From the NCBI RefSeq assembly GCF_040687965.1, contig NZ_CP156084.1, forward strand, positions 1,254,501 through 1,318,500: a stretch of 64,000 nt of DNA, in the 5' to 3' direction. Source of the DNA: Methylocystis echinoides. GTDB lineage: Bacteria; Pseudomonadota; Alphaproteobacteria; Rhizobiales; Beijerinckiaceae. The position numbers were made by a program, and so were the translations under genes. This document shows, in pieces, positions 847 to 14,515 of the stretch. Numbering within the stretch: the stretch's first letter is position 1; the number at the start of each line of letters is the position of its first letter. Below the pieces are notes generated by a model. The model was not told the DNA's origin and made no database searches. It was given only the letters and a program-made list of their open reading frames with translations.

Positions 847-878
847 AAAAAAGGAAGCTCGGCGCAAGCCGAGCTTCC
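847..878 (-). terminator. Rho-independent terminator of the split porin gene
   Basis: An 11-bp perfect stem (853-863 with 868-878) closed by a four-base loop is followed on the minus strand by six Ts (847-852). It lies 32 bases beyond the stop codon of the porin 3' fragment. It is therefore the original terminator of the gene whose promoter and 5' end are now near 14.5 kb. Confidence 0.85.
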
Positions 879-909
879 CGCTGTCGTCTCAACCCTGAGC
901 GTCCGCCGA

Positions 910-1145
910 TCAGTATTTCGCGACGGCTGGCGCCGGGGCGCCAAAATTGAAGTGATAATTGACGCCCGCGCGAACGATGTTGAACTGCGGGTGGCGATGG
1001 TAGCCGGTCTGGAAGCCCCAGTAGCCGGTCTGGCCGCCGCTGTTGAGATCCGTGTAGAGATACTCCGCCTTCGCCGACCAATTGGGCATGAACATCCACT
1101 CGACGCCGCCGCCAGCCGTCCAGCCGGTGCGGGTGTTGGAGAAGT
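910..1145 (-). pseudogene. Outer-membrane porin, 3' fragment of a split gene
   Basis: The minus strand from 1145 encodes SNTRTGWTAGGGVEWMF and then a typical terminal beta-strand region ending NYHFNFGAPAPAVAKY. This is the C-terminus of an Omp25/31-like (RopB) eight-stranded barrel of Rhizobiales. There is no start codon context or signal peptide. The N-terminal part is at 13930-14515 on the same strand. Joining the two at the shared 9-bp repeat gives 813 bases, exactly 271 codons including stop, in frame with no lost residue. The gene is thus interrupted by the element at 1146-13929 rather than decayed. Confidence 0.9.
1137..1145. repeat. Left attachment site core (attL), TGGAGAAGT
   Basis: The 9-mer tggagaagt at 1137-1145 is repeated in direct orientation at 13930-13938. 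Both copies lie exactly where the porin frame breaks, and recombination between them restores the frame. The integrase gene begins about 170 bases inside this site, the usual place. Confidence 0.8.
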
Positions 1146-1244
1146 CTCCTCATTAGCATCCGCCAGTGTCCATAATTGTCTGAATATCGCGTAAAAACAA
1201 TGGCATTACGCTAGCGGCCTGTCTGTGAGCGTCCGTCGCTGCCC

Positions 1245-1313
1245 GTTGGTATCCACGGAAAACGATGGTATAAGAGTTGGTGTCGGCGCTTCGCCGGGCG
1301 GGATCATACCAAC
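1245..1313. promoter_or_regulatory. Candidate left-arm integrase sites (GTTGGTAT)
   Basis: The 8-mer gttggtat occurs at 1245-1252 and inverted at 1306-1313, with a one-mismatch copy at 1264-1271. The same 8-mer occurs twice close to the right end of the element. Repeats shared by both ends, between core site and integrase gene, are the hallmark of arm-type sites. The copy touching the integrase start could also autoregulate it. Binding itself is inferred. Confidence 0.55.
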
Positions 1314-2543
1314 ATGCCATTGACTGACATTGAGATCAGGAAGGCCGCGCCCTCCGATAAGGTCCGTAAGCTCTCGGACGGCGGCGGGCTGCAACTGTGG
1401 GTCCAGCCTGACGGGGCAAAGTATTGGCGTCTCGCCTATCGCTTCGGCGGGAAACAGAAGCTGCTGGCCCTAGGCGTCTATCCGACGGTTGGATTGCGGG
1501 AGGCTCGGGCGGAACGCGAGCGCGCTAAGGGTCTACTTGTTGACGGGCGGGACCCTGGCCAAGCGAGGAAACTAGAGAAGGCGGCGAGGGCGGCTGCGTC
1601 GGAAAACACGTTTTGCGCCGTCGCCACAGAACTTGTCGAAAAGAAGCGGCGCGAACAAAAGCGCGAAGCCACGATTGACCAGCTGGAGCGCCTACTCGCT
1701 CTCGCAACGCCGTCTATCGGTGCGCGCCCCATAGCAGACATAACGGCGGCCGAGATTCTCTCTGTTTTACGTGGTGTTGAAAGGCGCGGAACGCATGTTA
1801 CGACGCTCCGCTTGCGCTCCGTCATCGGCGCCGTTTTTCGGTATGCTATCGCCACCGGCCGCGCAGAGAATGACCCGACCGGCGCACTCAAAGGCGCGCT
1901 AACGACGCCCACGTTGAAACATCGCGGCGCGATTGTAGACCCGAAAGCTTTTGGCGCGCTTCTCAGAGCTATAGATGGCTACCACGGCGCTCCCGAGACC
2001 TGCATCGCCCTTGAATTGCTCGCCCTCACCTTCGTTCGCCCCGGCGAGCTTCGGGCGGCAGAATGGGCGGAGATCGACCTTGACGCGGCCGTGTGGGTCA
2101 TTCCCGCTGGAAAAATGAAGATGGGTCGCGAGCATCGGATTCCACTTGCGCCTCGCGCTGTGGCGATCCTGCGCGAGTTACAGGTCATTACCGGCGGCGG
2201 CGGGAAATATCTTTTCCCATCCATCCGCTCGGCGGCGCGCTGCATGTCGGAAAACACCTTGACGGCAGCCCTCCGGCGGCTCGGCTACAAGCCCGATCAA
2301 ATGACGGCGCACGGTTTTAGATCGGCCGCAAGCTCAATGCTGAATGAGAGCGGGCTGTGGCACGCCGACGCAATCGAGCGGCAGCTGGCGCACGTAGATA
2401 AAGACGCCGTTCGCCGCGCATACGCTCGGGCAGACTTTTGGGAAGAGCGCATTCGGATGATGAATTGGTGGGCGGATCGCTGCGATGAAATGCGTCGCGG
2501 CGGCGAAGTCGTTCATCTCAAAATATCAGGCAAATCAGCCTGA
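1314..2543 (+). CDS. P4-type tyrosine integrase (DUF4102 plus phage integrase domain)
   Basis: This 409-residue protein catalyses site-specific integration and excision of the element. The N-terminus (MPLTDIEIRKAAPSDKVRKL, then GGGLQLWV) is the DUF4102 arm-binding domain of P4-type integrases. The C-terminal catalytic domain carries R247 in RPGELR, the H333-G-F-R336 box and the nucleophile Y370 in AYARADFWEERIRMM. Length matches the family. It is the first gene inside attL and points into the element. P4-type integrases usually target tRNA or tmRNA genes, so a porin-gene target is unusual. All catalytic residues are present, so the enzyme is probably active. Confidence 0.95.
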   Translation: MPLTDIEIRKAAPSDKVRKLSDGGGLQLWVQPDGAKYWRLAYRFGGKQKLLALGVYPTVGLREARAERERAKGLLVDGRDPGQARKLEKAARAAASENTFCAVATELVEKKRREQKREATIDQLERLLALATPSIGARPIADITAAEILSVLRGVERRGTHVTTLRLRSVIGAVFRYAIATGRAENDPTGALKGALTTPTLKHRGAIVDPKAFGALLRAIDGYHGAPETCIALELLALTFVRPGELRAAEWAEIDLDAAVWVIPAGKMKMGREHRIPLAPRAVAILRELQVITGGGGKYLFPSIRSAARCMSENTLTAALRRLGYKPDQMTAHGFRSAASSMLNESGLWHADAIERQLAHVDKDAVRRAYARADFWEERIRMMNWWADRCDEMRRGGEVVHLKISGKSA

Positions 2544-2616
2544 TAAGCGGCCGGGGCGCGGTGAAGTGGCAAGCCGCGCTCCGACCTAACCACATTGCAA
2601 AAAGGAGTTTCGCACC

Positions 2617-3057
2617 ATGGCTGAATCAGGTTCTACACCAAATCGCCGAACATTGCTTACCGGCCTCGCCGCTGCGCCCGTCGTCGGGCTACCGGCTGTC
2701 GCGAGCGCCTACATGGCTTCCGATCCAATCTTTTCCGCCATCGCAGGGCGGGGCAGGCTTAATGCGGAATTAGAAACAGCGATGGATCATACCGACAACA
2801 CTATCGTTAGCCGTGCTGATAAAGTGTCGATTGACGCCGCTTGGCGGGCCCAACACGTGGCCGGCGATGCGCTGGATGATGCAGACGCCGCAATATTTGG
2901 GATGCAGCCACAGACGCCGCAGGGCGCGCTCGCGTTGCTGCGCCATGTGGCCACCGTCATGGGCGGCGATCCTGGCCAGCTTTACCATGAGGGCAAAGAG
3001 TGCGAGGCGATCATGCGTTGCGTGGCCTTCCTCGAAGCGACGGGAGGCCAGCAGTGA
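2617..3057 (+). CDS. Hypothetical protein with Tat-like N-terminus
   Basis: This 146-residue protein has a good ribosome site (aaaggag, 9 bases before ATG). Its N-terminus has NRRTLLTGLAA at residues 9-19 followed by a hydrophobic stretch ending in ASA, resembling a twin-arginine signal. The rest is soluble and mostly helical, with one cysteine pair near the end. Its stop overlaps the GTG start of the next gene, so the two are probably co-translated. I recognise no domain. Similar Tat-like small proteins occur in accessory regions of Rhizobiales, but no function can be assigned. Confidence 0.7.
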   Translation: MAESGSTPNRRTLLTGLAAAPVVGLPAVASAYMASDPIFSAIAGRGRLNAELETAMDHTDNTIVSRADKVSIDAAWRAQHVAGDALDDADAAIFGMQPQTPQGALALLRHVATVMGGDPGQLYHEGKECEAIMRCVAFLEATGGQQ

Positions 3058-3593
3058 ATATCGCCATTACCCAAACCGATCCGGCTCTTGAAGCCATCGC
3101 CGAGGTTAATCGGCTCGACGCCGAAAGCTGCCAAGTCTCGATGAGGCTCGCTGACATTGTTGACGATATACGATGGAGCACCGGTAGCTTGCGTCCCTTT
3201 GGCCTAATAGATTGGCGCGGTCACTGCATCGGCCGCCAAGAAGTCGAACGGCTGCGCGACCAATTGTTATCCGAGCCCGACGCCGACCCTGAGAAGATCG
3301 AAGCCGAATACCTCGATGCAAAGGCGCGGGAGCGAGCCGAAGAGATAGCGGCGCGCGAGTGGGACGAGGCGCACGGCCTCACCGACATGCGCCGCCAGGA
3401 AGAGGCGTTGCTTAGTGATTATCGGAAGGCGTTTGAGCGATTGACGAGAACCGTCCCGACGACGCCGGCAGGAGCAATCGCGCTGCTTGGGTTTCTTAAG
3501 AAAAACCTAACCGACGAGATGTTTGACGAGCAGCATTACAAGATGCTCGACAATTTGGAGGCTGCGATTTCCCGGTGGAGGCTGGCGCTATGA
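3054..3593 (+). CDS. Hypothetical protein
   Basis: The predicted protein has 179 residues and starts at GTG 3054, overlapping the upstream stop (GTGA). It is rich in Glu, Asp and Arg and contains a long charged helical region (about residues 75-125, ARERAEEIAAREWDEAHG), probably a coiled coil. No catalytic motif is recognised. It ends in an ATGA overlap with a very small gene. A longer frame from ATG 3000 exists but would overlap the preceding gene by 58 bases, so GTG is preferred. It belongs to the left, early-looking part of the element. Confidence 0.65.
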   Translation: MNIAITQTDPALEAIAEVNRLDAESCQVSMRLADIVDDIRWSTGSLRPFGLIDWRGHCIGRQEVERLRDQLLSEPDADPEKIEAEYLDAKARERAEEIAAREWDEAHGLTDMRRQEEALLSDYRKAFERLTRTVPTTPAGAIALLGFLKKNLTDEMFDEQHYKMLDNLEAAISRWRLAL

Positions 3594-3739
3594 TAGCCAA
3601 GGATCGCCCCGGCCTGCTTTACCTTATCATGCTTCTATGGCGTCTCCGCCTCGCGCGGCTGATGCTCTGGTTGGCGCGGACAACGTCGCGTTTCGAAGAC
3701 GCTGCCCAGACGTATGCGCAGCGCGTCTTGAGCCGCTGA
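3590..3739 (+). CDS. Very small membrane-associated protein, hypothetical
   Basis: An ATG at 3590 overlaps the upstream stop (ATGA) and opens a 49-codon frame. The peptide has a strongly amphipathic, Leu/Trp/Arg-rich helix (residues 9-30, LLYLIMLLWRLRLARLMLWL) and a short polar tail. The overlap and the helix suggest a real coupled gene, possibly a small membrane peptide. It is too short to assign to a family. Confidence 0.45.
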   Translation: MIAKDRPGLLYLIMLLWRLRLARLMLWLARTTSRFEDAAQTYAQRVLSR

Positions 3740-3757
3740 GCGCAGGTCGAACCGAGT

Positions 3758-3986
3758 GGCCAAATTGTCCACACGGGCAAGTCGCAAAGTTTGCGACTTG
3801 ATAGGTTCGCAGATTGTGCGAACCCTCTGCAACGCAGCGGACAACTTGGCCGCTGCATAGGAAAAGGGCTGCGACGCGCCGGACAAATTGTCCGCTGCGT
3901 CCTGCGCCGGCGGCGAGTGAATCAAGCAGCAGGCCAATAAAATTCGTTTGCTGTGACAACGGACAGTAACGGCGGACAACTTGCCC
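3758..3986. repeat. Cluster of dyad motifs GGACAANTTGNCC plus two larger palindromes
   Basis: Four related 13-mers occur: ggccaaattgtcc (3758), ggacaacttggcc (3839), ggacaaattgtcc (3881, a perfect dyad) and ggacaacttgccc (3974). Between the first two lie a 23-bp perfect palindrome (3778-3800, 11-bp arms, core tcgcaaagtttgcga) and an 8-bp inverted repeat ggttcgca/tgcgaacc (3804-3824). The stretch between 3739 and 4082 has no convincing gene. It could be a repressor operator array, a partition or centromere site, or an origin. Confidence 0.7.
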
Positions 3987-4081
3987 ACCGTAAGGAACGC
4001 GCAAGGCTAGGGCGACGGCCCGAAAACGGATTTAGCCCATCCGCTGCCTTGCGCTCCACCTGGGCTTCGCGAGGCTCGCGA

Positions 4082-4711
4082 ATGGTTAAACGCACAGTTA
4101 AGAAAAAGATCGATTTCGGAAAGCCATCGCCGAGCGCCGAGAAGGCCCTTCGGCTGCTTGAACTGCCGATCCAGCTAGCAGAAGGCGAGAAAGTCGAGAC
4201 GTATGAATGGATAGAGCGGACTTTAATCGAGGAAGAATTTAGACGTGCTGGCATCATAGCCGAGCAGTATGGGCTGGATTTCATGAATAGCGAGCATGCG
4301 CCAATGATAGCATTGATGATAGCTCGCGACTTTGTGCCAGGGTTCAATCTATCGCGGCGACGCGGTGCTCCGAGAAAAACAATAGAGCTACTCAAAATTG
4401 CTAAAGAAGTCATTGCTGTCATGAAGCAGCCGGGACGGACCCTAACGGTTTCCAGTGCTTGCGAGATTGTTGCCAGCCGGCAGCGAAAGAGCGGCAAAGA
4501 GAGCAAAAGCAGAGAGGAAATTGAGCAGATGTTCTACCGCTTTTTAAAAGCTCGTGATTATACAATGGAAGTCATCGCTGATGCTAAGGATGCGATGGTC
4601 GCCGACAAGGCGCGATGGCATGAATTGAGCCGGCAAAATGCGCCTCAAGAGACGCTACTGGGACAAGCCTGCAAGCGGGAGGCGCAAACTACAGATAAAG
4701 GCGACAATTAA
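4082..4711 (+). CDS. Hypothetical protein of the element
   Basis: The predicted protein has 209 residues from ATG 4082. The frame is open from GTG 3953, but that part runs through the dyad repeats and is poor in typical protein sequence. The N-terminus is Lys/Arg-rich (MVKRTVKKKIDFGKP), followed by a mostly helical, charged body. The middle contains SRRRGAPRKTIE, common in uncharacterised Rhizobiales phage and island proteins. A basic N-terminus next to palindromic DNA would suit a DNA-binding role, but this is inference. No named family is recognised. Confidence 0.6.
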   Translation: MVKRTVKKKIDFGKPSPSAEKALRLLELPIQLAEGEKVETYEWIERTLIEEEFRRAGIIAEQYGLDFMNSEHAPMIALMIARDFVPGFNLSRRRGAPRKTIELLKIAKEVIAVMKQPGRTLTVSSACEIVASRQRKSGKESKSREEIEQMFYRFLKARDYTMEVIADAKDAMVADKARWHELSRQNAPQETLLGQACKREAQTTDKGDN

Positions 4712-4822
4712 TCGTAGCGCTTTCTTACGTTACGGAAATTGTAGCGGCTTTAACCGTAGTCGCCCTGGTGGTGTTGTCCATCCATAGCCGCATCAAGACA
4801 CCTGCGGCGAAGGATGGTGGAT

Positions 4823-5044
4823 ATGATTGCAAACCCTGAAGTTACCGGTCACAAAGCTGGCAGCGTGGCTTTCCACGACAAGCCGCGCGCTCGGCGGATC
4901 AATGACGCGTGCGCTGCGCTGGGCGTCAGCCGGTCTCATTTGTATGCGCTGGCGTCCAAGGGACTGATCCGCCTGGTTCGGATCGGGAACCGCACCGTCG
5001 TTCCTGAGAGCGAAATCGATCGATTGCTTGGGGAGGCGGCATAA
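4823..5044 (+). CDS. AlpA/excisionase-like helix-turn-helix regulator
   Basis: This 73-residue protein contains a MerR-like winged helix: DACAALGVSRSHLYALASKG followed by LIRLVRIGNRTVVPESEIDRLL, the typical 'recognition helix, wing, then DRLL' signature of AlpA and excisionase-like proteins. ATG 4823 is preferred because aagga lies 8 bases upstream; ATG 4814 lacks a spaced ribosome site. In P4 and Gram-negative PICIs, AlpA activates excision and the replication operon. Its place immediately before the primase operon fits that role. Confidence 0.75.
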   Translation: MIANPEVTGHKAGSVAFHDKPRARRINDACAALGVSRSHLYALASKGLIRLVRIGNRTVVPESEIDRLLGEAA

Positions 5045-5048
5045 GCGA

Positions 5049-5306
5049 ATGCAGGCCCTCAAAACTGAGAGGGCCGTCCCTTCATTGCGTGCGGCGAGAA
5101 GGAACGGCCCGAAGAATGAGCGCATTGGCGAGCGGCTCGACAGGGAATCTACCAGACCGGCGTCTGACTTTCAAATGATTGCCGACGTTGCGGCCGATGT
5201 GGTCGAGCGCCTCCGCGTCGCCCGTCTACGCCGCAAGTTCGGTCTCGACGCCGACATGGCGACGCTGCTGGCCCGGATCGCCTTCGAGACCACGGAGGCG
5301 CGCTGA
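5049..5306 (+). CDS. Hypothetical protein of the replication operon
   Basis: This 85-residue basic protein starts at ATG 5049, just after the AlpA-like gene, and ends in a TGATG overlap with the next gene. The N-terminal 35 residues are rich in Arg and Lys; the rest forms helices (IADVAADVVERLRVARLRRKF). No family is recognised. Its tight coupling with the following three genes places it in the replication operon. Confidence 0.6.
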   Translation: MQALKTERAVPSLRAARRNGPKNERIGERLDRESTRPASDFQMIADVAADVVERLRVARLRRKFGLDADMATLLARIAFETTEAR

Positions 5307-5509
5307 TGCAGCACCAAACCGACAATGAGGCGGCGCTGCGCCGTCTCTCCCATAACCTTGTCGCGTGCGGCGAGCGCGTCGTCTTCGAGCTTCTGGCCGA
5401 TCTCGTCAGAGGGCGCGATCTGTCCGAGACCTTGGCGGACTTCTCGCGGATCGATCCTGCGACATACGCGGCGTTGCTCGCTGCCATGCCGAAATGGGGG
5501 CGGGCATGA
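5306..5509 (+). CDS. Hypothetical small acidic protein
   Basis: This 67-residue helical protein starts at an ATG overlapping the previous stop and ends overlapping the next start (ATGA). It is almost entirely predicted helix (LSHNLVACGERVVFELLADL) without recognisable motif. Coupling on both sides supports a real gene in the primase operon. Confidence 0.6.
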   Translation: MQHQTDNEAALRRLSHNLVACGERVVFELLADLVRGRDLSETLADFSRIDPATYAALLAAMPKWGRA

Positions 5510-5811
5510 CCAACCGTCTCGACTTCGACGCGGTGAACCGGGCGGCGCTCTCCGCTCTCCCGGCCGTGCTGCATAGGCTGTTGCCGGGCGGAAAGGCTGT
5601 TGCCGGGGAATATGTCGTCCGCAACCCCAGGCGCGCGGACCGTTCGCCGGGAAGCTTCAAGGTCAATCTGCGCACGGGCCGATGGGCTGACTTCGCCTCG
5701 GGCGACAAGGGCGGCGACGCCGTTTCGCTCGTCGCCTACCTGGAGGACGTTAATCAAGGAAAGGCCGCCCGGCTGCTTTCTGAAATGCTCGGGCTCGGAG
5801 GCGCTCAATGA
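5506..5811 (+). CDS. Primase-like N-terminal domain protein
   Basis: This 101-residue protein resembles the N-terminal domain of phage primases: YVVRNPRRADRSPGSFKVN, then GRWADFASGDKGGDAVSLVAYL. The 'G.W.DF..G..GGD..SL.AYL' signature is that of the zinc-binding primase module, but here the zinc cysteines and histidines are missing, as in many DUF927-linked versions. It overlaps the TOPRIM/DUF927 gene by four bases. The two probably act together as a split primase-helicase that replicates the element. Confidence 0.75.
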   Translation: MTNRLDFDAVNRAALSALPAVLHRLLPGGKAVAGEYVVRNPRRADRSPGSFKVNLRTGRWADFASGDKGGDAVSLVAYLEDVNQGKAARLLSEMLGLGGAQ

Positions 5812-8267
5812 ATAATCGGTTTGCGCCTCTAAGCGCTGACGAAATGCGGAGTTCCGTGATTGAATTTCCGGCCGCGCAAGAGGATGCGGGGGACATTGTG
5901 TCGCCGGTCCCGTCTGACGCGCCGTCGATGCCGGCGACGCATCCTGTGCATGGCGGGCATGTCGCGGAATGGACGTATCACGACTATCAAGGGCGCGTGC
6001 TCTTTATCGTTCGTCGCTTCGAGCCGGTGGGCGAGCGCAAGCAAATACTCCCGCTCTCTCTCTGGCGTGACGCGCTTGGGCATGTCAGGTGGAAATGGAA
6101 AGCGGCTCCGGCTCCGCGTCCGCTCTACAGCCTAGACGCCATCGCGGGCAATGTTGATGCTCCCGTCGTCATCGTTGAGGGGGAGAAGTCGGCGGATGCC
6201 GCCGGGCGCATCTTCACTCGAAGCATCGCGACAACCAGTCCCGGCGGTTCTCAGGCTGTGTCTAAAGCCGATTGGACGCCGCTTGCCGGCCGGCGCGTGC
6301 TGATCTGGCCGGACGCTGATGCGCCAGGCGCAAAGTATGCGCGCGAGGTTGGCGAAGTTCTCGCCGGGCTCGGCTGCGAGGTTTCAACTATCGACGCCAT
6401 GGCGCTCGCGGCGATGGCCCCCAATGGTTCAAAGCGCGAGCCGCAAGCCGGTTGGGACGCGGCCGACGCGGTAGTGGAATGGGCGGACCTTGCGGCGCTG
6501 CGCGCCGCCGCCGTGAAGCTCCTCAAGCCGTTCGAGGCGGGCCCTGCTTTTATCTCCTGGGGCGCTTTCTCGATGGGCTCGGGCGGGCTCACAATCGAGG
6601 CGACAAAGGGCCGTGGCGACGACGCCGAGACGGTTAACGAATGGGTGTGCTCGCCCTTCGAAGTGCTCGGCGCGACGCGTGATCCGAACGGGAGGGACTG
6701 GGGCAAATGGCTGCGCTGGCGTGACGGCGACGGGCGCGAGCATTTGCGGCATGTGGCCGAGGCGTCGTTACAGGGTGAGCCGGCGTCGCTTGCGGCCTCC
6801 CTTGTATCTGACGGGCTTCGCGTGAACCGGGCGCAACAGAAGGCGCTCGCGACCTACCTGTGCGGCGTCTCGACCAAGGGCCGCGTGACCATAGTTTCGC
6901 GGACCGGCTGGCATAGGATAGGCGATCGCGACTTGTTCGTGCTGCCGGGTGAGACAATCGGGCCGCGAGGGTCCGAGACTGTCATTCTCGACGGTGCGGC
7001 GCATGGTCCATACGAGTCACGCGGGACGCTCCAAGATTGGCAGGCCGGCGTCGGCGCTCTCGCGGCGGATCATGCGCTTGCCGTGCTCGCCATATCTGCT
7101 GCGCTGGCCGGGCCGCTTCTACATATCGCCGGCCAGGAAGGCGGCGGGCTGAATTTCTTCGGGCCATCGTCCAAGGGCAAGACGACCATCCTTCAAGCTG
7201 GCGCTTCCGTGTGGGGCCGTGGCGCTTCTCCTGGGTATGTGCGGGCGTGGCGGGCGACGGCAAACGGTCTCGAAGGCGCGGCGTCGAGCGCGACGGACAC
7301 TTGCTTGGTTCTCGATGAGTTGGGCGTGGTCGAAGCCCGTGACGCACAGTCGGCTGTCTATGGGCTCTCAAATGGGACTGGCAAAGCGCGGTCGGGGCGC
7401 GATGGTTCTTTGCGGGAGCCGAAAAGCTGGCGCGTCCTTGTTCTCTCGACGGGCGAAATCCCGATTGCCACGAAGCTCGCGGAAGACAGAGGACGAAGGG
7501 CTCGCGCCGGCCAAGAAGTGCGCTTGCTCGACATTCCAGCGGATCGGGGGCTCGGGTGCGGCGCGTTCGATCATGCCGGGCCGGAGGGCGATGCGGGGAA
7601 GCTCTCGAAGGCCATCAAGGTTGCTGCGCAATCGGCATATGGGACGGCCGGGCCGGAGTTCGTCCGCCGGCTGATTGCCGAAGGCGTAGACGGGGAGTCC
7701 GTGCGGGCGATGGTCTCGGGCTTCGTCGCGGCGGAGGTTCCGGCCGGGGCTGATGGTCAGGTTGATCGGGCGGCGCAACGTCTTGGTCTTATCGCTGCGG
7801 CGGGCGAACTGGCGACATTGGTGGGAGTGGTGCCTTGGCGCAATGGCGCGGCGCGTGAGGCGGCGGCTTGGGCTCTCCGCCAGTGGATCGATGCGAGGGG
7901 CGGGACCGATGCGGGCGAGGTGCGCCAAGCCATCGAGGCGGTGCGGCTTGTCATCGAGCTTCACGGGGAAAGTCGCTTTGAAGCAGTTGGCGGCGACGGC
8001 GACAGCCGGCCCGTCAATAACCGGCTTGGCTGGCGCAAGGGCGAGGGTTCTGAGCGCGAGTGGTGGGTCTCGCCGCAGGTCTGGAAGGAGGAAATCTGCG
8101 CCGGACTTAACCCGTCCTTTGTCGCCAAGACGCTCGCGGACAGGGGCCTGCTTCGAGTTCAAAGCGGGCGCGGCTTTCAATGCAAGGTCAACCTTGGGGG
8201 CGACAGGCGGGCCAATGTCTACGTGGTGACGGCCGGCATTTTGGAGGGGGCGGAAAATGAGGGCTGA
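5808..8267 (+). CDS. TOPRIM and DUF927 primase-helicase
   Basis: The protein has 819 residues. Residues about 110-235 form a TOPRIM domain: VVIVEGEKSADAA with E124, and LIWPDADAPG with D169 and D171, the metal-binding acidic residues of primases. Residues about 255-580 are a DUF927 superfamily helicase with Walker A GPSSKGKTT (452-460) and Walker B CLVLDELG (D503, E504). The C-terminal part (about 720-815) resembles a winged-helix DNA-binding end. It should unwind and prime element DNA. It is coupled by overlaps to genes on both sides. This is the core replication protein of the element. Confidence 0.9.
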   Translation: MNNRFAPLSADEMRSSVIEFPAAQEDAGDIVSPVPSDAPSMPATHPVHGGHVAEWTYHDYQGRVLFIVRRFEPVGERKQILPLSLWRDALGHVRWKWKAAPAPRPLYSLDAIAGNVDAPVVIVEGEKSADAAGRIFTRSIATTSPGGSQAVSKADWTPLAGRRVLIWPDADAPGAKYAREVGEVLAGLGCEVSTIDAMALAAMAPNGSKREPQAGWDAADAVVEWADLAALRAAAVKLLKPFEAGPAFISWGAFSMGSGGLTIEATKGRGDDAETVNEWVCSPFEVLGATRDPNGRDWGKWLRWRDGDGREHLRHVAEASLQGEPASLAASLVSDGLRVNRAQQKALATYLCGVSTKGRVTIVSRTGWHRIGDRDLFVLPGETIGPRGSETVILDGAAHGPYESRGTLQDWQAGVGALAADHALAVLAISAALAGPLLHIAGQEGGGLNFFGPSSKGKTTILQAGASVWGRGASPGYVRAWRATANGLEGAASSATDTCLVLDELGVVEARDAQSAVYGLSNGTGKARSGRDGSLREPKSWRVLVLSTGEIPIATKLAEDRGRRARAGQEVRLLDIPADRGLGCGAFDHAGPEGDAGKLSKAIKVAAQSAYGTAGPEFVRRLIAEGVDGESVRAMVSGFVAAEVPAGADGQVDRAAQRLGLIAAAGELATLVGVVPWRNGAAREAAAWALRQWIDARGGTDAGEVRQAIEAVRLVIELHGESRFEAVGGDGDSRPVNNRLGWRKGEGSEREWWVSPQVWKEEICAGLNPSFVAKTLADRGLLRVQSGRGFQCKVNLGGDRRANVYVVTAGILEGAENEG

Positions 8268-8706
8268 GGCGCTCCAAGGGCTTCTCCAAACCATGCGCGG
8301 GGAGACAGCCAAAAAGACGGCCGGAACGGGCGGAACGTCGGAACTGGGGCCGTTCCAACCTTCCGTTCCAACACGTTCCAACAAAAAGTTCCAACATTTG
8401 GCCTCGGAAAACCCTAACAATTTCAATGACGTTCCAACAGTTCCAACAGTTCCAACACACTATGTAAGGGGTAAAACGGAAGCAGCAAAAATCGAGGCTT
8501 TCGCGTCGGAACTAGCGTCGGAACGCGGTCGGAACGGGCCGGCGCAAACCGACCCGGTGATGAGTCGCAAAGTTTGCGACTCCACCACGGGCTGGTGGGA
8601 TGAACCGGTGGAGGGATGGCCTCACAGCCTGACCATTCGAAACCTTGCGACCGGCAAGGAGACGATCATCGACTTGCGCCGCGTCCCGGCGGAGGGTGAG
8701 GCGTGA
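8257..8706 (+). CDS. Hypothetical protein spanning iteron-like repeats
   Basis: The ATG at 8257 overlaps the end of the primase gene, and the frame runs 149 codons into a GTGA overlap with the next gene. Residues 35-67 are low-complexity and encoded by repeated GTTCCAAC units (PTVPTVPT). The C-terminal 45 residues look like ordinary protein (GWPHSLTIRNLATGKETII). No family is recognised. The gene may tolerate DNA repeats whose real function is in replication. Confidence 0.55.
   Translation: MRAEALQGLLQTMRGETAKKTAGTGGTSELGPFQPSVPTRSNKKFQHLASENPNNFNDVPTVPTVPTHYVRGKTEAAKIEAFASELASERGRNGPAQTDPVMSRKVCDSTTGWWDEPVEGWPHSLTIRNLATGKETIIDLRRVPAEGEA
8352..8456. repeat. Seven GTTCCAAC iterons, candidate replication origin
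   Basis: Exact gttccaac copies start at 8352, 8365, 8375, 8388, 8431, 8440 and 8449; the last three are tandem with 9-base period. The reverse motif core ggaac appears at 8323, 8332 and 8340 and again past 8508. Iterons immediately downstream of a primase-helicase gene are the arrangement of P4-like origins. Function is inferred. Confidence 0.6.
8562..8582. repeat. Second copy of the tcgcaaagtttgcga palindrome
   Basis: A 21-bp perfect palindrome with 10-bp arms. Its central 19 bases (agtcgcaaagtttgcgact) are identical to those at 3780-3798, 4.8 kb away in the same element. Exact reuse of a palindrome, once between genes and once inside a gene beside the iterons, suggests one DNA-binding protein acts at both. 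Confidence 0.65.
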
Positions 8707-8990
8707 CGATGGAAGATGATGGGACTGACTTCATCCTGAAGCCCTTCGACGCCGCCGAAGCGATCCGCGTGAATGTCGCTGCGCGTCTGGCGGGGGTTGC
8801 GCCCAGGACAATTCAGCACTGGTGTGCCGTGCATCGCATCGGACGCCGCATCGGTGGGGGGCATTGGCGAGTGTCGAGGGTGGCGCTCGCGATGCATCTT
8901 GATGGGGATGAAGAGGCGTTGCGGCTGTATCTGAGCGGCGACCGTGTAAGCGCGCGGGTCGCAGGGTATTTCCGCCGCGCGGGACTATAG
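8703..8990 (+). CDS. Helix-turn-helix DNA-binding protein, excisionase-like
   Basis: This 95-residue protein starts at GTG 8703, which has ggagg seven bases upstream and overlaps the previous stop. It contains VNVAARLAGVAPRTIQHWC and then GRRIGGGHWRVSRVAL, a winged helix of the MerR/excisionase type, followed by a short helical tail. Ending the replication operon, it may be the excision factor or a late regulator. It is the second such protein in the element, after the AlpA-like one. Confidence 0.65.
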   Translation: MTMEDDGTDFILKPFDAAEAIRVNVAARLAGVAPRTIQHWCAVHRIGRRIGGGHWRVSRVALAMHLDGDEEALRLYLSGDRVSARVAGYFRRAGL

Positions 8991-9001
8991 CGGTGTCGGC
9001 T

Positions 9002-9340
9002 TCAGTCTTTCCGGAACGGGCACCAGACCTGAAATATCTCGTGGAAAGAATGTAGCATCTCGAAGGTATTTACGGTCTTGCCGTCCGGAGACTTGGCTGC
9101 GATCTGATCTAGGGCCGGCCCTATTTTGCTGATGGCGTCTCGCTGCACCTCGGCCAAGGCTTCTTCCATGGTCGGCCATGGCTCCATGCCTGAGGGTAAA
9201 CGCCATCCAGGATGCGGATCGTAGACAATCGCACGCACGGCGGAGACTATTATCTGCTTGCCTTGTTCAGATATCTTCCCACCCGTGCAAGACTCCCAGC
9301 TTGTGATCGCTGCGTGAATTTTTTCTGCGATATCGACCAC
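9002..9340 (-). CDS. Hypothetical protein, opposite strand inside the element
   Basis: This 112-residue protein is the only minus-strand gene between the two plus-strand operons. It has plausible globular composition (IAEKIHAAITSWESC, SPDGKTVNTFEMLHSFHEIF) and no known motif. Its stop lies 12 bases beyond the stop of the convergent HTH gene. Its promoter would lie in the 9341-9711 gap. Function unknown; repressor-like motifs are not seen. Confidence 0.6.
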   Translation of the reverse strand: MVDIAEKIHAAITSWESCTGGKISEQGKQIIVSAVRAIVYDPHPGWRLPSGMEPWPTMEEALAEVQRDAISKIGPALDQIAAKSPDGKTVNTFEMLHSFHEIFQVWCPFRKD

Positions 9341-9711
9341 GGAACCCAGCTGTCGGTCTGAGCGGATTTTCGGAGTGCGAACTTACCTGAAGCCCCCAGA
9401 TAAGTCCGCGAGGAAGTCGCAGGAGCACGGCCTAAGCCATTTGAGGGGGAGCCACAACCTATGATGGTGGACCCTACCTGAGCTTTCCTACAACTCGATA
9501 ATAGTAGAACCGCGTGATTGTAGCTTTGTTTCGTGGCTGTGCGGAATTGTCGTGCTATCCGCTGGGCAACTCAGGACAACGCCAGCAATGCGGGCACGGG
9601 CTCGGATGGCTGATCAGCGATCATGTTTCCGTCAATGAAAAACACCGCATAACCCGCAAGGGCCGCAAAAGCGACGTGGCGTCTCGGAGTCCGCGTGCTT
9701 AAGATTCTCAC
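9341..9711. other. 371-base gene-poor stretch with a hairpin
   Basis: No convincing gene is seen; a 62-codon plus frame at 9514 lacks a ribosome site and protein-like composition. A hairpin with nine-base arms and one mismatch lies at 9381-9405 (acttacctg/cagataagt). The stretch separates a minus gene from the plus-strand late-looking operon, so it probably holds divergent promoters. Confidence 0.5.
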
Positions 9712-9927
9712 ATGACGCCGCATGAAGTCGAACAGATTGCGACTGCTTTTGCAGCCATCATGGACGCCGCGTTGTCGTCGCTCGATCCGAGCGGCGCAGC
9801 CCTTCGCGGGGTGGGGTGGCACCTGCGCGAAGGGCTGAAGCTCGCCGAGCAAATGGACGCTGTCGACAGTGACGCCGCCAAGATCGTCCACCACTTCTTG
9901 CAAAACATTGAAAGTGAATCCGAATGA
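9712..9927 (+). CDS. Hypothetical small protein, first of the packaging operon
   Basis: This 71-residue, mostly helical acidic protein (EVEQIATAFAAIMDAAL) ends in an ATGA overlap with the next gene. No clear ribosome site precedes the ATG, so transcription may begin close to it. It is the first gene of the operon that leads to the small terminase. No family is recognised. Confidence 0.55.
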   Translation: MTPHEVEQIATAFAAIMDAALSSLDPSGAALRGVGWHLREGLKLAEQMDAVDSDAAKIVHHFLQNIESESE

Positions 9928-10370
9928 CAGACAGCCCCGCCATTCTCGTCCGCCGTTTTCAATTGGCTGAAAGCCAGCGCGCCGAGTATTTCGCGACGGT
10001 GGAGGAGACCGTAACGCCCGAGGAGGTGCTGAAGCCTGACTTCTGGCGGCATGTGGCAACAACCCTGCGGCCCTATGACCTGATCGATGTCGCTGTCGAT
10101 AGCTGCGATTGGTTCATGCGTTTGCTCGTCGCCGACGCTTGGCATAATGGCGTCCGAGTCATTGAGCTGAGCCGCCATGATATGACGGGTGAAGCCGAAG
10201 AGGCTCAGAGCATCGGCAACGACCTTCGCGTGAAATGGCGCGGCCCGGTGAACAAATGGGCGGTCGTTCGATCGGATGGCGTTATCTTGCGGGCCAACCT
10301 GCCCGACAAGAATATCGCCCTCGAAGCGCTGGCCGCCGCCGTGTCCGACCGCGCCAAGATTGGCTTCTAA
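9924..10370 (+). CDS. Hypothetical phage-related protein
   Basis: This 148-residue protein overlaps both neighbours by a few bases. It has a globular pattern with Trp-rich segments (DVAVDSCDWFMRLLVADAWH, VKWRGPVNKWAVVR). It lies immediately upstream of the small terminase, a position in which uncharacterised phage genes often sit. I recognise no motif and assign no function. Confidence 0.6.
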   Translation: MTDSPAILVRRFQLAESQRAEYFATVEETVTPEEVLKPDFWRHVATTLRPYDLIDVAVDSCDWFMRLLVADAWHNGVRVIELSRHDMTGEAEEAQSIGNDLRVKWRGPVNKWAVVRSDGVILRANLPDKNIALEALAAAVSDRAKIGF

Positions 10371-10849
10371 TGCCGGCTGGACGCCCCAGAATCCGCCCGC
10401 ATCCATTAGATGAGGGTATTGTGGATCGCATCGCAGAGGGGCTCGCTTCCGGTCTGGGTATTCGCAAGGTCTGCGAACCTGAAGACATGCCGACATACCA
10501 ATCCGTCTATGTCGCAATGGCCAGGGACGGCAATTTTGCGAAAGCAATCGCGCGCGCGAGGGAAGCCCAACAGGAGCACGAAGCCGACGCCTGCGTCGAG
10601 ATGGCTGACGAGGCGAACGAGGGCAACTGGCAGGTTGTGAAGCTGCGCATCTGGGCTCGCCAATGGCGTGCGGCGAAACTCGCCCCGAAGAAATACGGCG
10701 AGAAGGTCCAGCAAGAAATCACTGGCAAGGATGGCGGGCCAATTGAGACGAAGGGCGACCAAGCCGTGACGATAGAGACGGCGCGCCGGCTGGCGTTTCT
10801 CCTGGAGCAAGGACGGCGGGCGCTGGAGGGGAAGGGCGAGAAACCATGA
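10370..10849 (+). CDS. Phage small terminase subunit, Sf6-like
   Basis: This 159-residue protein starts at ATG 10370, overlapping the previous TAA. An N-terminal helix-turn-helix (IVDRIAEGLASGLGIRKVC and MPTYQSVYVAM) is followed by REAQQEHEADACVEMADEAN and LRIWARQWRAAKLAPKKYGEK. This is the pattern of Sf6-type small terminases, which form a ring that binds pac DNA and hands it to the large terminase. No large terminase is encoded here. In PICIs a private small terminase redirects a helper phage's packaging motor to the island, and that is the best explanation in this context. Confidence 0.8.
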   Translation: MPAGRPRIRPHPLDEGIVDRIAEGLASGLGIRKVCEPEDMPTYQSVYVAMARDGNFAKAIARAREAQQEHEADACVEMADEANEGNWQVVKLRIWARQWRAAKLAPKKYGEKVQQEITGKDGGPIETKGDQAVTIETARRLAFLLEQGRRALEGKGEKP

Positions 10850-11418
10850 GCGGATTAGAGCCGGCGCTGATGGGCGCTGCGATGGCGACGCAAGCTGGCG
10901 GAACCTTGTTGAGCGCCTTCGGCGAAACGAGCGGCACGAATGACCAAGCGTCGGCTCTAGACGCGCAGCGCTACTTCGACATTCTGACTTCTCAGTATAA
11001 GGCGCGGGCTCTGAATGACGCGGCCAATCAAGCGATGGCAGGCGCGCAGCGTCAGGCGATGGATCGCGTGACCGACAAGAAGCTGGCGCTTTCCAAGGCG
11101 CAGGCGATCAATGCGGCAGGCGGCGGCGGGTCAACGGACGCCTCCTTCGTCAACACGGTTGGGCAGATTGAGCAACAGGGCGAATACAATAAGGCGGTTG
11201 CGCTGTTCGAAGGCGAAACCGAAATGAACCGGCTGAACTATGAGGCGCAGAACGCTCTGATCGAGGGAATGAACGTCGCCAATGCGCGCGGCTATCAAGC
11301 GGATCAAGTGAGGCGGCAGGGCCGGAGAAAGGCCGCTGGGACACTGCTTTCCGGCGCTGGCGAGATTGGCAAATCCTATACGAGATACTCGAATGCGGCA
11401 TGGCGGCAAAATGACTAA
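10846..11418 (+). CDS. Putative internal virion protein, T7 gp14-like
   Basis: The protein has 190 residues, starting in an ATGA overlap with the terminase gene. It has an N-terminal small-residue segment (ALMGAAMATQAGGTLLSAFG) and a long helical Ala/Gln/Glu-rich body. It ends in GRRKAAGTLLSGAGEIGKSY, the layout of podovirus internal core or ejection proteins such as T7 gp14. These form part of the channel through which DNA enters the host. The match is by composition and layout, not by a sharp motif. For a satellite, carrying its own ejection protein would be unusual. Confidence 0.5.
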   Translation: MSGLEPALMGAAMATQAGGTLLSAFGETSGTNDQASALDAQRYFDILTSQYKARALNDAANQAMAGAQRQAMDRVTDKKLALSKAQAINAAGGGGSTDASFVNTVGQIEQQGEYNKAVALFEGETEMNRLNYEAQNALIEGMNVANARGYQADQVRRQGRRKAAGTLLSGAGEIGKSYTRYSNAAWRQND

Positions 11419-11671
11419 GTTACGCAAGGGCCTTTCGAGCCCGTTCGAGACGCCCGAGGCCCGAGAAGCTTTCAAAGAAGCGCTACGGGCGGCTTTCACC
11501 GCCAGCCGGGCTCTAACTGATTCCCTGGAGAGAATGTTGAAGGGCGATGCCGTCGAGCCCATGGGGGCCATCGAAGAAGCGGTGGCTGAGGCTCGGAACG
11601 CTCAGGCGGCATGGGCGCTGTTTGCGCGGCTTTCTGATCCGGCGAGGGGCGAGGGGTCGCGGCTGAATTAA
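11411..11671 (+). CDS. Hypothetical protein, last gene of the packaging operon
   Basis: This 86-residue helical protein starts at ATG 11411, overlapping the previous gene by 8 bases. A longer frame from 11366 would overlap more and is less likely. The sequence is Ala/Glu/Arg-rich (EAREAFKEALRAAFTASRAL) and lacks a recognisable motif. It ends sharing bases with the convergent minus-strand gene. Confidence 0.55.
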   Translation: MTKLRKGLSSPFETPEAREAFKEALRAAFTASRALTDSLERMLKGDAVEPMGAIEEAVAEARNAQAAWALFARLSDPARGEGSRLN

Positions 11672-12459
11672 GGGCCCGCTGGCGGGGGATCACGCCTCGG
11701 AAGCTTCCGACCCAAGTCGTCGGCAAACAGATGACAAGCAAAGGCGATCTCGAAAAACTCGTCGGCTGAAAACGTCACTCGCTCCCCGGCTCGATAGCTT
11801 TTCCGGTAAGAAACCCGTTGGCCAAAAATCGGCACTTGGCCCTGCCCCTCAATTCTTACGCCGGGACGCAAGTCTATCTCTTCTTCCCCGCGCTTATAGA
11901 AACACCGGAGCCGGGGAAATGTCAGGCTGAGATTGCCGTCCTTTGCAATATCGCGTGCACCAACAACGCCACCCCGATGTTCGAGGCAGTTCCTGACATC
12001 CTGTATCGAGCGAAATTCCGCGTCGAAAGCCAGCGGCTCTGTTAACCCCTCATTAACTCGCGCAAGAAGCTGAGGAAAGAGTAGCCTGCCGGCTTCGGTC
12101 TTAACGTCCAAAATCTCTTTTTCTAGTTCGCCACAGGTCATCACTCGCTCGGCTCGGTTGAAAAACGCCAAAAACAAAAACGCTTCCTCAAGCGAGGCGC
12201 GAAGCCCTCTGGCTAAGTCCTGGAATGCTTTGGCGAGCAGCCAGTTGTGATAGGAAGCGCGGCGATCCTCCGACGTTAAATTTGGGCCTGGGAAACGAAA
12301 TCCCAGCGCCGCACTCGCCGGCATTGGCTCGGCCAATTCTCGCCCTGACATGCTCGATAGGCATTCGGCTACGACATGAGCGGCTAGCCGCGCGGCCTCC
12401 TGTGCTGGGGCAACTACTTGGTTGGGGTTTAAAGTCATTTGGACGCGTTCGATCATCAC
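11668..12459 (-). CDS. HEPN-like protein, possible anti-phage cargo
   Basis: This 263-residue protein is convergent with the packaging operon and shares its last four bases. It is mostly helical and contains DVRNCLEHRGGVV, giving R156-x4-H161, the RX4-6H motif of HEPN ribonucleases, which act in abortive infection and toxin systems. The C-terminal third is beta-rich (SLTFPRLRCFYKRGEEEIDL). A single motif is modest evidence, and many HEPN-fold proteins are not nucleases. Its place at the right end, where satellites carry host-benefit genes, supports a defence role. Confidence 0.5.
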   Translation of the reverse strand: MMIERVQMTLNPNQVVAPAQEAARLAAHVVAECLSSMSGRELAEPMPASAALGFRFPGPNLTSEDRRASYHNWLLAKAFQDLARGLRASLEEAFLFLAFFNRAERVMTCGELEKEILDVKTEAGRLLFPQLLARVNEGLTEPLAFDAEFRSIQDVRNCLEHRGGVVGARDIAKDGNLSLTFPRLRCFYKRGEEEIDLRPGVRIEGQGQVPIFGQRVSYRKSYRAGERVTFSADEFFEIAFACHLFADDLGRKLPRRDPPPAGP

Positions 12460-12597
12460 CTCGTTCGCCCCGCCAAAAAGCCTAAGCGGGGCATTCTTTG
12501 TTGGGTCCGCGTCGGCCGCAGATCGATCCGGCTTTCGCCGTTTGGTAAGAATCTGCCAGCAAGGACCGGCGTGGCATTTAAGGTGAAGACGGCGACA

Positions 12598-12864
12598 TCA
12601 GCTGTCATTGCGATTCCGCTTTTCAAAGAACTCAATGAGGCCGGCTGTGACTAAGAGGCCGCAGAAAAAGCCGATCAAGCCGGCCCAGTTTCCTTCCTTC
12701 AGCGTGTATACTTTGCCTAGTTCGTCTATATAGCCGAGCCTTCCACGCATCGCTTCTTCGACGTTTTCCTCGTCAGCTATTACCCCTTGGAAGATTGTCC
12801 CTGGAGAATCGCCAACGAGCCAAGCTCCGATCCAGATAGCCAAAAAGACGCTTAGATAAAGCAC
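12598..12864 (-). CDS. Small two-helix membrane protein
   Basis: The predicted protein has 88 residues with a transmembrane helix at each end (LYLSVFLAIWIGAWLV; NWAGLIGFFCGLLVTAGLIE) and a charged loop of about 40 residues between them. The topology suggests both ends on the same side. No family is recognised. It lies in the cargo end of the element next to the HEPN-like gene; two-helix membrane partners occur in some abortive-infection modules, but a link is speculative. Confidence 0.55.
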   Translation of the reverse strand: MLYLSVFLAIWIGAWLVGDSPGTIFQGVIADEENVEEAMRGRLGYIDELGKVYTLKEGNWAGLIGFFCGLLVTAGLIEFFEKRNRNDS

Positions 12865-12964
12865 TCCTCGCGCCGCCAGAGTTCAAGTTCGACGGGATAG
12901 TCGAGCCATAGGCGAGAAGTCGGGGGCTTAAGCGGGTCGCTGACCGAGGGACTGATTTAACCTC

Positions 12965-12981
12965 GGCGTCAAATTGACGCC
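12965..12981. promoter_or_regulatory. 17-bp perfect palindrome ggcgtcaa-a-ttgacgcc
   Basis: An odd-centred perfect dyad with 8-bp arms lies in the gene-free stretch upstream of the membrane-protein gene. It looks like a regulator binding site, though no partner is identified. Confidence 0.4.
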
Positions 12982-13036
12982 AGTCTGATTGCAGGCGCGT
13001 TGAGACCGGGCCGTCTGCAGCTCACGCTATCGGGAA

Positions 13037-13063
13037 TGCAGCCGCGCAGGTAACGCGGCTGCA
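13037..13063 (-). terminator. Hairpin downstream of the Gly/Trp-rich gene
   Basis: A perfect stem with 10-bp arms (tgcagccgcg / cgcggctgca) and a 7-base loop lies about 50 bases beyond the stop at 13115 on the minus strand. No T-tract follows, so it may be a weak terminator or an mRNA 3' stabiliser. Confidence 0.4.
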
Positions 13064-13114
13064 CCCTTCGCATCGGCCCGAGAGATGTAGCTAGAACCGG
13101 GTCGTGCAAAACGC

Positions 13115-13540
13115 CTAGCAGGGGCAGTTGCACCCGCCGCTATAACCGTAATAGGCGGGGTATGAGTAAGTGGGAGACGCCATTCCGTAAGTGCCGCAGC
13201 CCGCTGAGCCCCAATAGCCAGGATATGCCGAGCCATAATAGCCGTAGCCGCCGTATGGGTAGCCAGCGCCGAGCGCCAAGCCAGTCGCCAAGCCAGCCCC
13301 CAAGCCTAATCCGCCATATCCCCAGTGGCCGTAGCCCCAGCCGGGCCGCGCATATCCCCAATGGCGGCCCCATCCACCATATCCCCAATGACGACCCCAT
13401 CCGCCGCCATATCCAATGTGGCGACCCCATCCGCCGCCCCAACCATAACGGCCCCATGCCGAAGCAGGGGTGGAAACCGACACCGCGCCGGCCAGCATGA
13501 CTGCGGCAAGCGCCGTCGTAAGCATCTTCGAGTTTCTCAT
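13115..13540 (-). CDS. Gly/Trp/Tyr-rich secreted protein, copy 1
   Basis: The protein has 141 residues. A Sec signal (MRNSKMLTTALAAVMLAGAV, cleavage after STPASA) precedes a repetitive mature part built of GGGWGRHWGYGG-like units, then YPYGGYGYYGSAYPGYWGSA and a Cys-rich end GGCNCPC. Such proteins are found in Rhizobiales envelopes without known function. A paralogue lies at 50657-51004. Both genes have an identical 18-base leader 17 bases upstream of the ATG. This copy lies just inside attR, so the mobile element carries what looks like a host gene with its leader. Confidence 0.75.
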   Translation of the reverse strand: MRNSKMLTTALAAVMLAGAVSVSTPASAWGRYGWGGGWGRHIGYGGGWGRHWGYGGWGRHWGYARPGWGYGHWGYGGLGLGAGLATGLALGAGYPYGGYGYYGSAYPGYWGSAGCGTYGMASPTYSYPAYYGYSGGCNCPC

Positions 13541-13557
13541 TGCCGTGTCTCCGGGTG

Positions 13558-13575
13558 CTTGTCTGACAAAGCCCC
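13558..13575 (-). promoter_or_regulatory. Conserved leader element of the Gly/Trp-rich gene
   Basis: The 18-mer ggggctttgtcagacaag (minus strand) ends 17 bases before the start codon. The same 18-mer at the same distance precedes the paralogue at 50657, and similarity extends about 40 bases further upstream. The core ctttgtc-agacaag is a near-palindrome, suggesting an operator or a structured leader. Confidence 0.55.
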
Positions 13576-13929
13576 TCGGCCAACCCGTGCAACGCGAACG
13601 AAATCCCCTTGTTCCGGGCAATCGAAGGCAGCGAGGCGGCCGGGCGCTCGCCCTCGGCCGGAGTCTCTCGCCTTATGACAGCCACTTACGAAAGGGGTGG
13701 AATTATAAAAAGTTGAAACTCAAGCCAAGACGACGGCGCAGACCCTCACTCAGCCTGCGGCTCACGGCCGGACTGGTCGCAATACAGGGCACGACTTGGC
13801 CTCAGCCGCATGGATCGCCTTTCCGGCAGGCCTAGCGAAAAAAATCGTTGGTATCTCTGTTGGTATAAAAATTTTCGGAACGCCATCTACTCGAATTAGA
13901 TCAATACTTTAGACGCGCAATTCGGACGC
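13576..13929. other. Gene-free right end of the element
   Basis: No gene is seen. The stretch contains the promoter region of the Gly/Trp-rich gene and, near 13850, an AT-rich segment carrying the right-arm repeats. It ends at the attachment core. Confidence 0.5.
13847..13866. promoter_or_regulatory. Candidate right-arm integrase sites (GTTGGTAT x2)
   Basis: Two direct copies of gttggtat (13847-13854 and 13859-13866), spaced 12 bases, lie 64 bases inside the right core. They match the copies at 1245 and 1306 near the left end. A pair of direct arm sites on one side is common in tyrosine-recombinase attP sites. Confidence 0.55.
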
Positions 13930-13938
13930 TGGAGAAGT
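13930..13938. repeat. Right attachment site core (attR), TGGAGAAGT
   Basis: Direct repeat of 1137-1145. On the minus strand the porin frame reads into ACTTCTCCA and then continues eight codons of element sequence to a stop. Confidence 0.8.
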
Positions 13939-14515
13939 TCGAATAGCCGCCAGAGACGCCGCCATAGGCGAAGCCGCCCGTGCCGTAGACGAGCAGCGTG
14001 GGCGTGATGAGGAAGCCGGCGCGCCCGCGAACGGTGCCAACCCAGTTGAGGGCGATGCCCGGGTTGCCCCCCGGCGACACCGGAACCAGGTAATTGCCGG
14101 GCGAGGTCGGATCGGGATAGACGATGTAATTCGAGTTGCCGCCAGAGCTCATGCTCGTGCCCTGGATGTCGGTCTCGACGCCGACGACGAAGCTCGAACC
14201 AAGCTGATAATTGTAACCCGCCTGGCCGCCGCCGACGACGCCGCCGGCATTATTGCCGCCGTTGCCATTGCCCGGCAGGAGATGGAGCGAACCGTTCACT
14301 GTCGAGGCGTAGGGCGTCAGCTGGTTCGGATTGACGCTATTGGCGCTCCAGCCGCCGCCAATATTCAGACCGGCGTAAAACCCGGTCCATAACGGCGGAG
14401 GCGGCGGCGGGACATAAACAGGCTCCGCCTTGCGAGACGGCAGATCGGCTGCGAAAGCGCCGCCGACGCTCAAAGTGGCAAGGGAAGCCGCCATCAGCAG
14501 CATAGCTTTTTTCAT
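13930..14515 (-). pseudogene. Outer-membrane porin, 5' fragment of a split gene
   Basis: Starts at ATG 14515 with a Sec signal (MKKAMLLMAASLATLSVGGA, cleavage near FAADLPSRK). The Omp25/31 hallmark follows: PPPPPPLWTGFYAGLNIGGG. It continues through barrel strands (GTVRGRAGFLITPTLLVYGT) to the attR core at SNFS. Element sequence then adds a few codons and a stop. The missing last quarter lies at 910-1145. As it stands the protein lacks its C-terminal strand, needed for BAM assembly, so it is presumably non-functional until the element excises. An in-frame upstream ATG at 14548 lacks signal-peptide character. Confidence 0.9.

Follow-up and report, generated by a model that had tools for sequence, protein, structure and literature searches.

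The 64-kb window analyzed in this study (C1:1254501-1318500) belongs to the 4.35-Mb, four-contig genome of Methylocystis echinoides, probably a methane-eating host, in whose genome two AMO/pMMO A genes scored equally. Within this window, a 12.8-kb satellite-like element splits an outer-membrane beta-barrel (porin) gene, with a 9-bp direct repeat at both edges of the insertion. The integrase of the element falls into a clade that is mainly directed at tRNA and tmRNA genes, and the explanation favored here, with a probability of roughly 60%, is that the integrase specificity of this satellite lineage has changed, its target moving from a tRNA gene to a site within the porin coding sequence. According to this proposal, a tyrosine integrase descended from tRNA-targeting integrases would have used a 9-bp core within the porin gene for site-specific recombination, inserting the satellite and breaking the gene. 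The arm sites and the core spacing would have been retained from the tRNA-site relatives, with the tRNA 3' block replaced by a core matching the porin gene, and the target would have moved from a gene that is functional after insertion (tRNA) to one that is not (coding gene).

Boundaries of the Insertion in the Porin Gene

The features delimiting the insertion are the following (positions refer to the window):

852-879, minus strand: terminator-like hairpin with a T run after the porin 3' part
910-1145, minus strand: porin gene, 3' part, including the stop codon (910-912)
1137-1145, plus strand: copy of the 9-bp core on the integrase side, ending 168 bp before the integrase ATG
1245-1313: P' arm sites GTTGGTAT at 1245 (plus strand) and 1306-1313 (minus strand), near-copies at 1264 and 1276
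13847-13866, plus strand: P arm sites, two copies of GTTGGTAT 12 bp apart
13930-13938, plus strand: distal copy of the 9-bp core, lying 71 bp beyond the second arm site
13930-14515, minus strand: porin gene, 5' part, including the start codon (14513-14515)

Joining of the two flanks yields an in-frame gene of 813 bases, encoding 270 amino acids plus stop codon. The core sequence TGGAGAAGT occurs exactly twice in the 64 kb, namely at the two edges; because two or more copies were also reached in 6 out of 100 shuffles of the window, this count is weak alone, and it is the position of the repeat that carries the case. A paralogous partial porin copy on plasmid C4 of the same genome spans the empty site, and its two homology blocks overlap by exactly the nine core bases (probability of such an overlap arising by chance at a given junction, approximately 4e-5). 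This copy agrees with the empty site in 105 out of 129 bases, compared with 33 out of 129 for the reconstructed attachment site of the element (attP). It is located at L183:1458-1743, with a match to an IS630-type transposase nearby. We infer that recombination ran through the two 9-bp cores.

Intact porins continue through the junction, with identities of 81% (L010, belonging to the Pfam family OMP_b-brl), 79% (L011), and 79% (L182, a paralog from the same genome compared over 248 residues). Both porin halves matched the same intact relatives (L010, L011, L181, and L182), at 76-80% for the N-terminal and 83-87% for the C-terminal half. Locus L012 encodes an uninterrupted porin (69%) together with an upstream AraC-type gene (43%), in an arrangement as found in the window.

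These results bear on the first-pass annotation of this DNA, which had proposed a 12.8-kb insertion bounded by a 9-bp repeat in a porin that it labeled Omp25/31, a continuous porin frame upon joining, and a 3' half that has kept its own terminator. The repeat, the split gene, and the empty-site match corroborate the insertion, uninterrupted relatives up to 81% identical support the joined frame, and the 3' half indeed retains its own stop codon as well as the hairpin. Likewise, the placement in a coding gene instead of a tRNA gene stands, no tRNA having been found in a scan of the whole window. The annotation had further held that its reading would fail if intact relatives lacked the 9-mer at this position, or if no uninterrupted homologue of the joined protein existed. 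Such homologues were found; the 9-mer, in turn, is not conserved, being present in exact form in only 1 out of 30 distinct aligned porin copies (duplicates dropped). The sole copy bearing it is another porin encoded in this genome (L007:100-564, corresponding to C1:3126531-3126995), aligned over residues 155-270 only, in which the 9-mer lies at the homologous position and the frame reads through over the covered part.

A protein produced from the broken porin 5' part would very probably be inactive, because it retains 195 out of 270 residues, followed by a tail of nine foreign residues. A sigma-70-like promoter was sought upstream of the porin start, and none was found.

Attachment Site and Integrase Relatives

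The integrase possesses the R, HxxR, H, and Y motifs of tyrosine integrases. Its relatives were tallied for 87 loci, which remained from 98 (80 loci plus the best genus matches) after removal of the window, seven duplicates, and three loci with less than 300 bp of upstream DNA. At 75 of these loci, a whole tRNA (69) or tmRNA (6) gene ends 156-226 bp before the integrase, and a tRNA fragment instead of a whole gene was found at three more. The nine loci without a tRNA call comprise four with short CCA-ending pieces (recognized by eye), three of LptF/LptG type, and two ambiguous cases. The clade hence has a second coding-gene target, located at the 3' terminus of a gene of the LptF/LptG family, as deduced from the open reading frame (ORF) for L051 and L095 and from matching upstream DNA for L052, with Pfam run on L051 only for the family assignment. 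These three loci (L051, L052, and L095) originate from metagenome-assembled genomes labeled Gallionellaceae, Methylophilaceae, and Nitrotoga. In a tree of 19 chosen rows, the window integrase was placed in a set of six together with users of tRNA-Thr and tRNA-Met (support 97/97).

Four relatives from the genus, sharing 59-73% integrase identity, carry tRNA-Thr (two), tRNA-Met, or tRNA-Leu genes, the 3' ends of which are located 163-164 bp before the integrase, compared with a core-to-ATG distance of 168 bp in the window. At the right end of the relative L173 (genome G033), a GTTGGTA pair with the same 12-bp spacing is followed by a tRNA-Thr fragment 67 bp further on; in the window, the 9-mer follows at 71 bp. 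Since the arm pair and the core spacing match those of the tRNA-site relatives, the 9-mer, judged from the sequence, holds the position of the tRNA at both ends. Four exact copies of the arm motif GTTGGTAT were detected in the 64 kb, all of them near the element ends (0.21 expected; 0 out of 100 shuffles reached four), and 135 kb from seven other stretches of the same genome contained no copy.

Islands at tRNA sites occupy the 3' end of a tRNA or tmRNA gene, which is kept; here, neither a tRNA in the window nor a tRNA block in attP was detected. When attP was scanned in 17-mers, the best match to 44 tRNA genes from this genome was 12 out of 17, compared with a mean of 12.4 and a maximum of 14 in 40 shuffles. 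Similarly, a search of 39 genus genomes with each attP half, allowing up to three mismatches, revealed no close second attB: the right half gave one foreign three-mismatch match (none in the reversed control) and the left half four matches (six in the reversed control), none of them close. Two further features of attP were set aside. The GGAG..CTCC palindrome carries no weight (fold z-score −0.89), and mimicry of a T-loop by GTTCGAAT beside the core (13936-13943; 19/33 to tRNA-Pro) was dropped because its score is near chance, by an estimate made without shuffles, and because, judging from the relatives, such a sequence would be expected on the other side of the core.

Proposed Change of Specificity and Alternative Explanations

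Given an integrase clade that is mainly tRNA/tmRNA-directed, a changed or mistaken target is the first explanation to be considered, and a dedicated switch comes later. A changed specificity is favored because integration through an attP suited to a tRNA gene would be expected to leave a tRNA 3' block in the element, of which none was detected, and because no close second attB was found and the clade has reached another coding gene (LptF/LptG). Several observations weigh against it. Only a single porin insertion is known here, and a porin half was found at none of the 80 integrase loci (E 1e-3; some of them with little upstream DNA). The fork that makes a tRNA-Thr user the outer branch relative to the window integrase has a support of only 87/76, and the core-binding domain has diverged only slightly more than the rest of the integrase, with identities of 59-68% between the window and its relatives and of 67-76% among the relatives (one 97% pair excluded). 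When one mismatch is allowed, the arm motif is no more frequent than expected (11 copies against 12.3). Finally, two tRNA-site attPs serving as positive controls for the block scan scored 15/17 and 16/17, which shows only that the scan can see a block, because the block is built in by assembly.

A one-off off-target insertion, by which a tRNA-specific satellite entered a secondary site in the porin gene and became largely unable to leave it, is a possible, albeit doubtful, alternative. It would account for the identity of only 9 bp, compared with 16, 47, and 59 bp at three genus tRNA-site satellites and 15-18 bp in 11 wider relatives, an argument tempered by L173, in which the damaged right copy shows only 11 exact bases. 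The modest change in the core-binding domain and the failure to find another porin insertion fit this alternative as well, as does the fact that another satellite in this genome already occupies tRNA-Thr(tgt), the type of site used by the nearest relatives. The tRNA-specific element ICEBs1 uses secondary sites and excises poorly from them, as described in an excerpt of the corresponding publication (PMC3715440). However, a tRNA 3' block would be expected at one end of the element after such an event, and none was detected on either side; moreover, both cores are identical, with no trace of a mismatched crossover. Hardly credible is a transposon or an unrelated rearrangement with a 9-bp target duplication, a length common among DDE transposons: terminal inverted repeats are absent, with agreement in 4 of the 20 outermost bases, inverted matches less than 100 bases from the ends do not exceed 7, a value reached in 57 out of 200 shuffles, and integrase arm sites with tRNA-like spacing are present at both ends.

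Excision of the element is plausible, because the cores are identical, the integrase is uninterrupted and has its motifs, an excisionase-like ORF is present, and arm sites occur at both ends; it may still be possible and would restore the porin ORF. A reversible switch, which the first-pass annotation had suggested together with a possible block of a phage receptor, would resemble active lysogeny or regulated gene integrity; such a switch, in which regulated excision re-enables the porin and changes the surface or phage sensitivity, is nevertheless considered unlikely. In its favor are the exact restoration of the ORF by excision and the envelope cargo of relatives, namely a porin-like gene in a satellite of a sister species (Pfam score just below the cut-off) and a polysaccharide-export gene in el2, a second satellite of this genome; furthermore, gene-disrupting satellites without replacement sequence are read as regulated gene integrity in an excerpt of PMC10111431. 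Yet exact restoration follows any site-specific insertion and is, therefore, no evidence of a switch, and no regulatory link was seen. In addition, at least 17 pieces of porin-like DNA were found at approximately 13 other places in the genome (40 out of 71 candidates scored), so that losing one porin copy may matter little. We infer that the insertion at present amounts to losing a single porin among many and does not act as a regulated switch. Equally improbable appears an extension of the changed-specificity proposal, in which the lineage moved to a fast-evolving porin family and porin knock-out and restoration act as a surface switch gating the entry of helper or competitor phages; in this reading, the porin L007 with its exact 9-mer could offer an additional insertion site.

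Gene Content and Related Satellites

The following genes were predicted between the two cores (HTH, helix-turn-helix):

1314-2543, plus strand: tyrosine integrase (Arm-DNA-bind_3, Phage_int_M, Phage_integrase)
2617-3057, 3000-3593, and 3953-4711, plus strand: ORFs without assigned function (no Pfam/PHROG match at 0.01)
4814-5044, plus strand: HTH_17 protein, AlpA/excisionase-like (PF12728, phrog_66)
5808-8267, plus strand: DUF927 primase-helicase
8703-8990, plus strand: second HTH_17 protein, first gene of a module common to two sister satellites
9924-10370, plus strand: phrog_26742 protein, shared module
10370-10849, plus strand: small terminase subunit (TerS), Sf6 type, with a longer ORF from 10235
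10846-11418, plus strand: internal-virion-like protein (phrog_418)
11366-11671, plus strand: 101-aa ORF, last of the shared module
11668-13621, minus strand: cargo of 263-aa, 88-aa, and Gly/Tyr-rich exported-looking ORFs, no convincing family

The satellite-like nature suggested by the first-pass annotation agrees with this repertoire of integrase, AlpA-like HTH protein, primase-helicase, and TerS, and no capsid, portal, tail, or large terminase gene was found with Pfam and PHROGs among the 19 element ORFs plus the porin 5' part. The size of 12.8 kb lies within the 10-20 kb expected for satellites resembling the phage-inducible chromosomal islands (PICIs) of Gram-negative bacteria, which are likewise free of portal, tail, and large terminase genes. 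The integrase, AlpA-like HTH, and DUF927 primase genes share one direction, with the AlpA-like call based on HTH_17 and phrog_66 (9e-5) and not on the Phage_AlpA family. The DUF927 primase-helicase found matches, many of them partial, in 11 out of 38 other genus genomes. Concerning the cargo, the Gly/Tyr-rich minus-strand ORF has a signal-peptide-like start, the 263-aa ORF contains an RX4H string that we presume to be HEPN-like, as a candidate only, and PADLOC returned one weak match at 0.022.

Two further satellites were identified in the same genome. The element el2 (C1:3616789-3630796), inserted at tRNA-Thr(tgt) with a 16-bp repeat, shares 89% DNA identity with positions 8699-11671 of the window, and el3 (C1:2767186-2787395), inserted at tRNA-Glu(ttc) with a 47-bp repeat, shares 86% over 1.46 kb of the same stretch and 73-89% over shorter pieces. 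Because of this shared stretch and of the replication-type genes, which in el2 and el3 differ from those of the window element, the latter and its two sisters can be regarded as a set of three modular satellites. The sister-satellite loci are L170, L171, L188, and L233. A polysaccharide-export protein gene inside el2 (L170:9473-10228) is a further envelope gene carried as cargo. In a sister species, an element (L279:1900-16291) resides in tRNA-Ala(cgc) with a 59-bp repeat and carries a porin-like gene (11961-13082) that is 37% identical to the window porin, its Pfam score being just under the cut-off.

Satellites resembling Gram-negative PICIs are mobilized by helper phages, and a candidate helper was sought by means of TerS. 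A 98% copy in this genome was rejected as a helper signal, as it belongs to el2. Weaker TerS matches were obtained in five other genomes; the surroundings were viewed in G031, G018, and G006, in which genes of the shared module are also present, and a helper prophage may reside at the remaining ones. The IMG/VR contig L252 encodes a TerS of 62% identity near a portal gene and is a possible helper type only. For the internal-virion protein, no match was found in the phage collection, and for the DUF927 primase query, a pattern scan gave no IMG/VR relative. The sole Terminase_6C gene of the genome, the one large-terminase family searched, is located within a phage-like structural cluster at C1 ~2239-2257 kb (L276 and L277), which presumably resembles a gene transfer agent.

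Comparison with Known Systems

In active lysogeny, prophages split a gene that is precisely restored by their excision. The window element is alike in its split and precisely restorable gene; regulated excision is a feature of active lysogeny, whereas excision of the window element is predicted only. With Gram-negative PICIs and P4-like satellites, it has in common the size of approximately 12.8 kb, the inward-facing integrase, the AlpA-like HTH protein, the DUF927 primase, and the presence of some phage late genes with no virion set found. Unlike these, it adds TerS and an internal-virion-like module common to its sister satellites, and its AlpA call differs in basis from the Phage_AlpA family of Gram-negative PICIs. 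A published prophage or satellite in a porin gene did not turn up among the open-licence papers listed, as screened by titles and the starts of abstracts, by which absence from print is not established.

Helper-embedded PICIs, as far as excerpts of PMC10111431 describe them, offer a further parallel: they occupy coding genes without providing a replacement sequence, the gene is restorable by excision, and their integrase clade has both tRNA and coding-gene targets, one related group with an extremely similar integrase using tRNA-Phe. The target of the window element, in contrast, is a chromosomal porin gene instead of a prophage late gene, with no helper link. Secondary insertions of ICEBs1 (PMC3715440, likewise in excerpt) resemble the present case in that a tRNA-type integrase acted at a site within another gene; they differ from it in that the window attP is without a detected tRNA block and both cores are identical.

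How integrases change their target is a long-standing question. What is new compared with these systems is an integrase of a mainly tRNA/tmRNA-targeting clade at a porin coding gene, with a 9-mer in the tRNA position and no tRNA piece detected in attP. As tRNA-type arms and spacing are kept and a coding-gene core stands in place of the tRNA block, a change of target becomes directly testable with purified parts, and the element provides a chromosomal, non-prophage case for asking whether gene-breaking satellites are accidents or switches.

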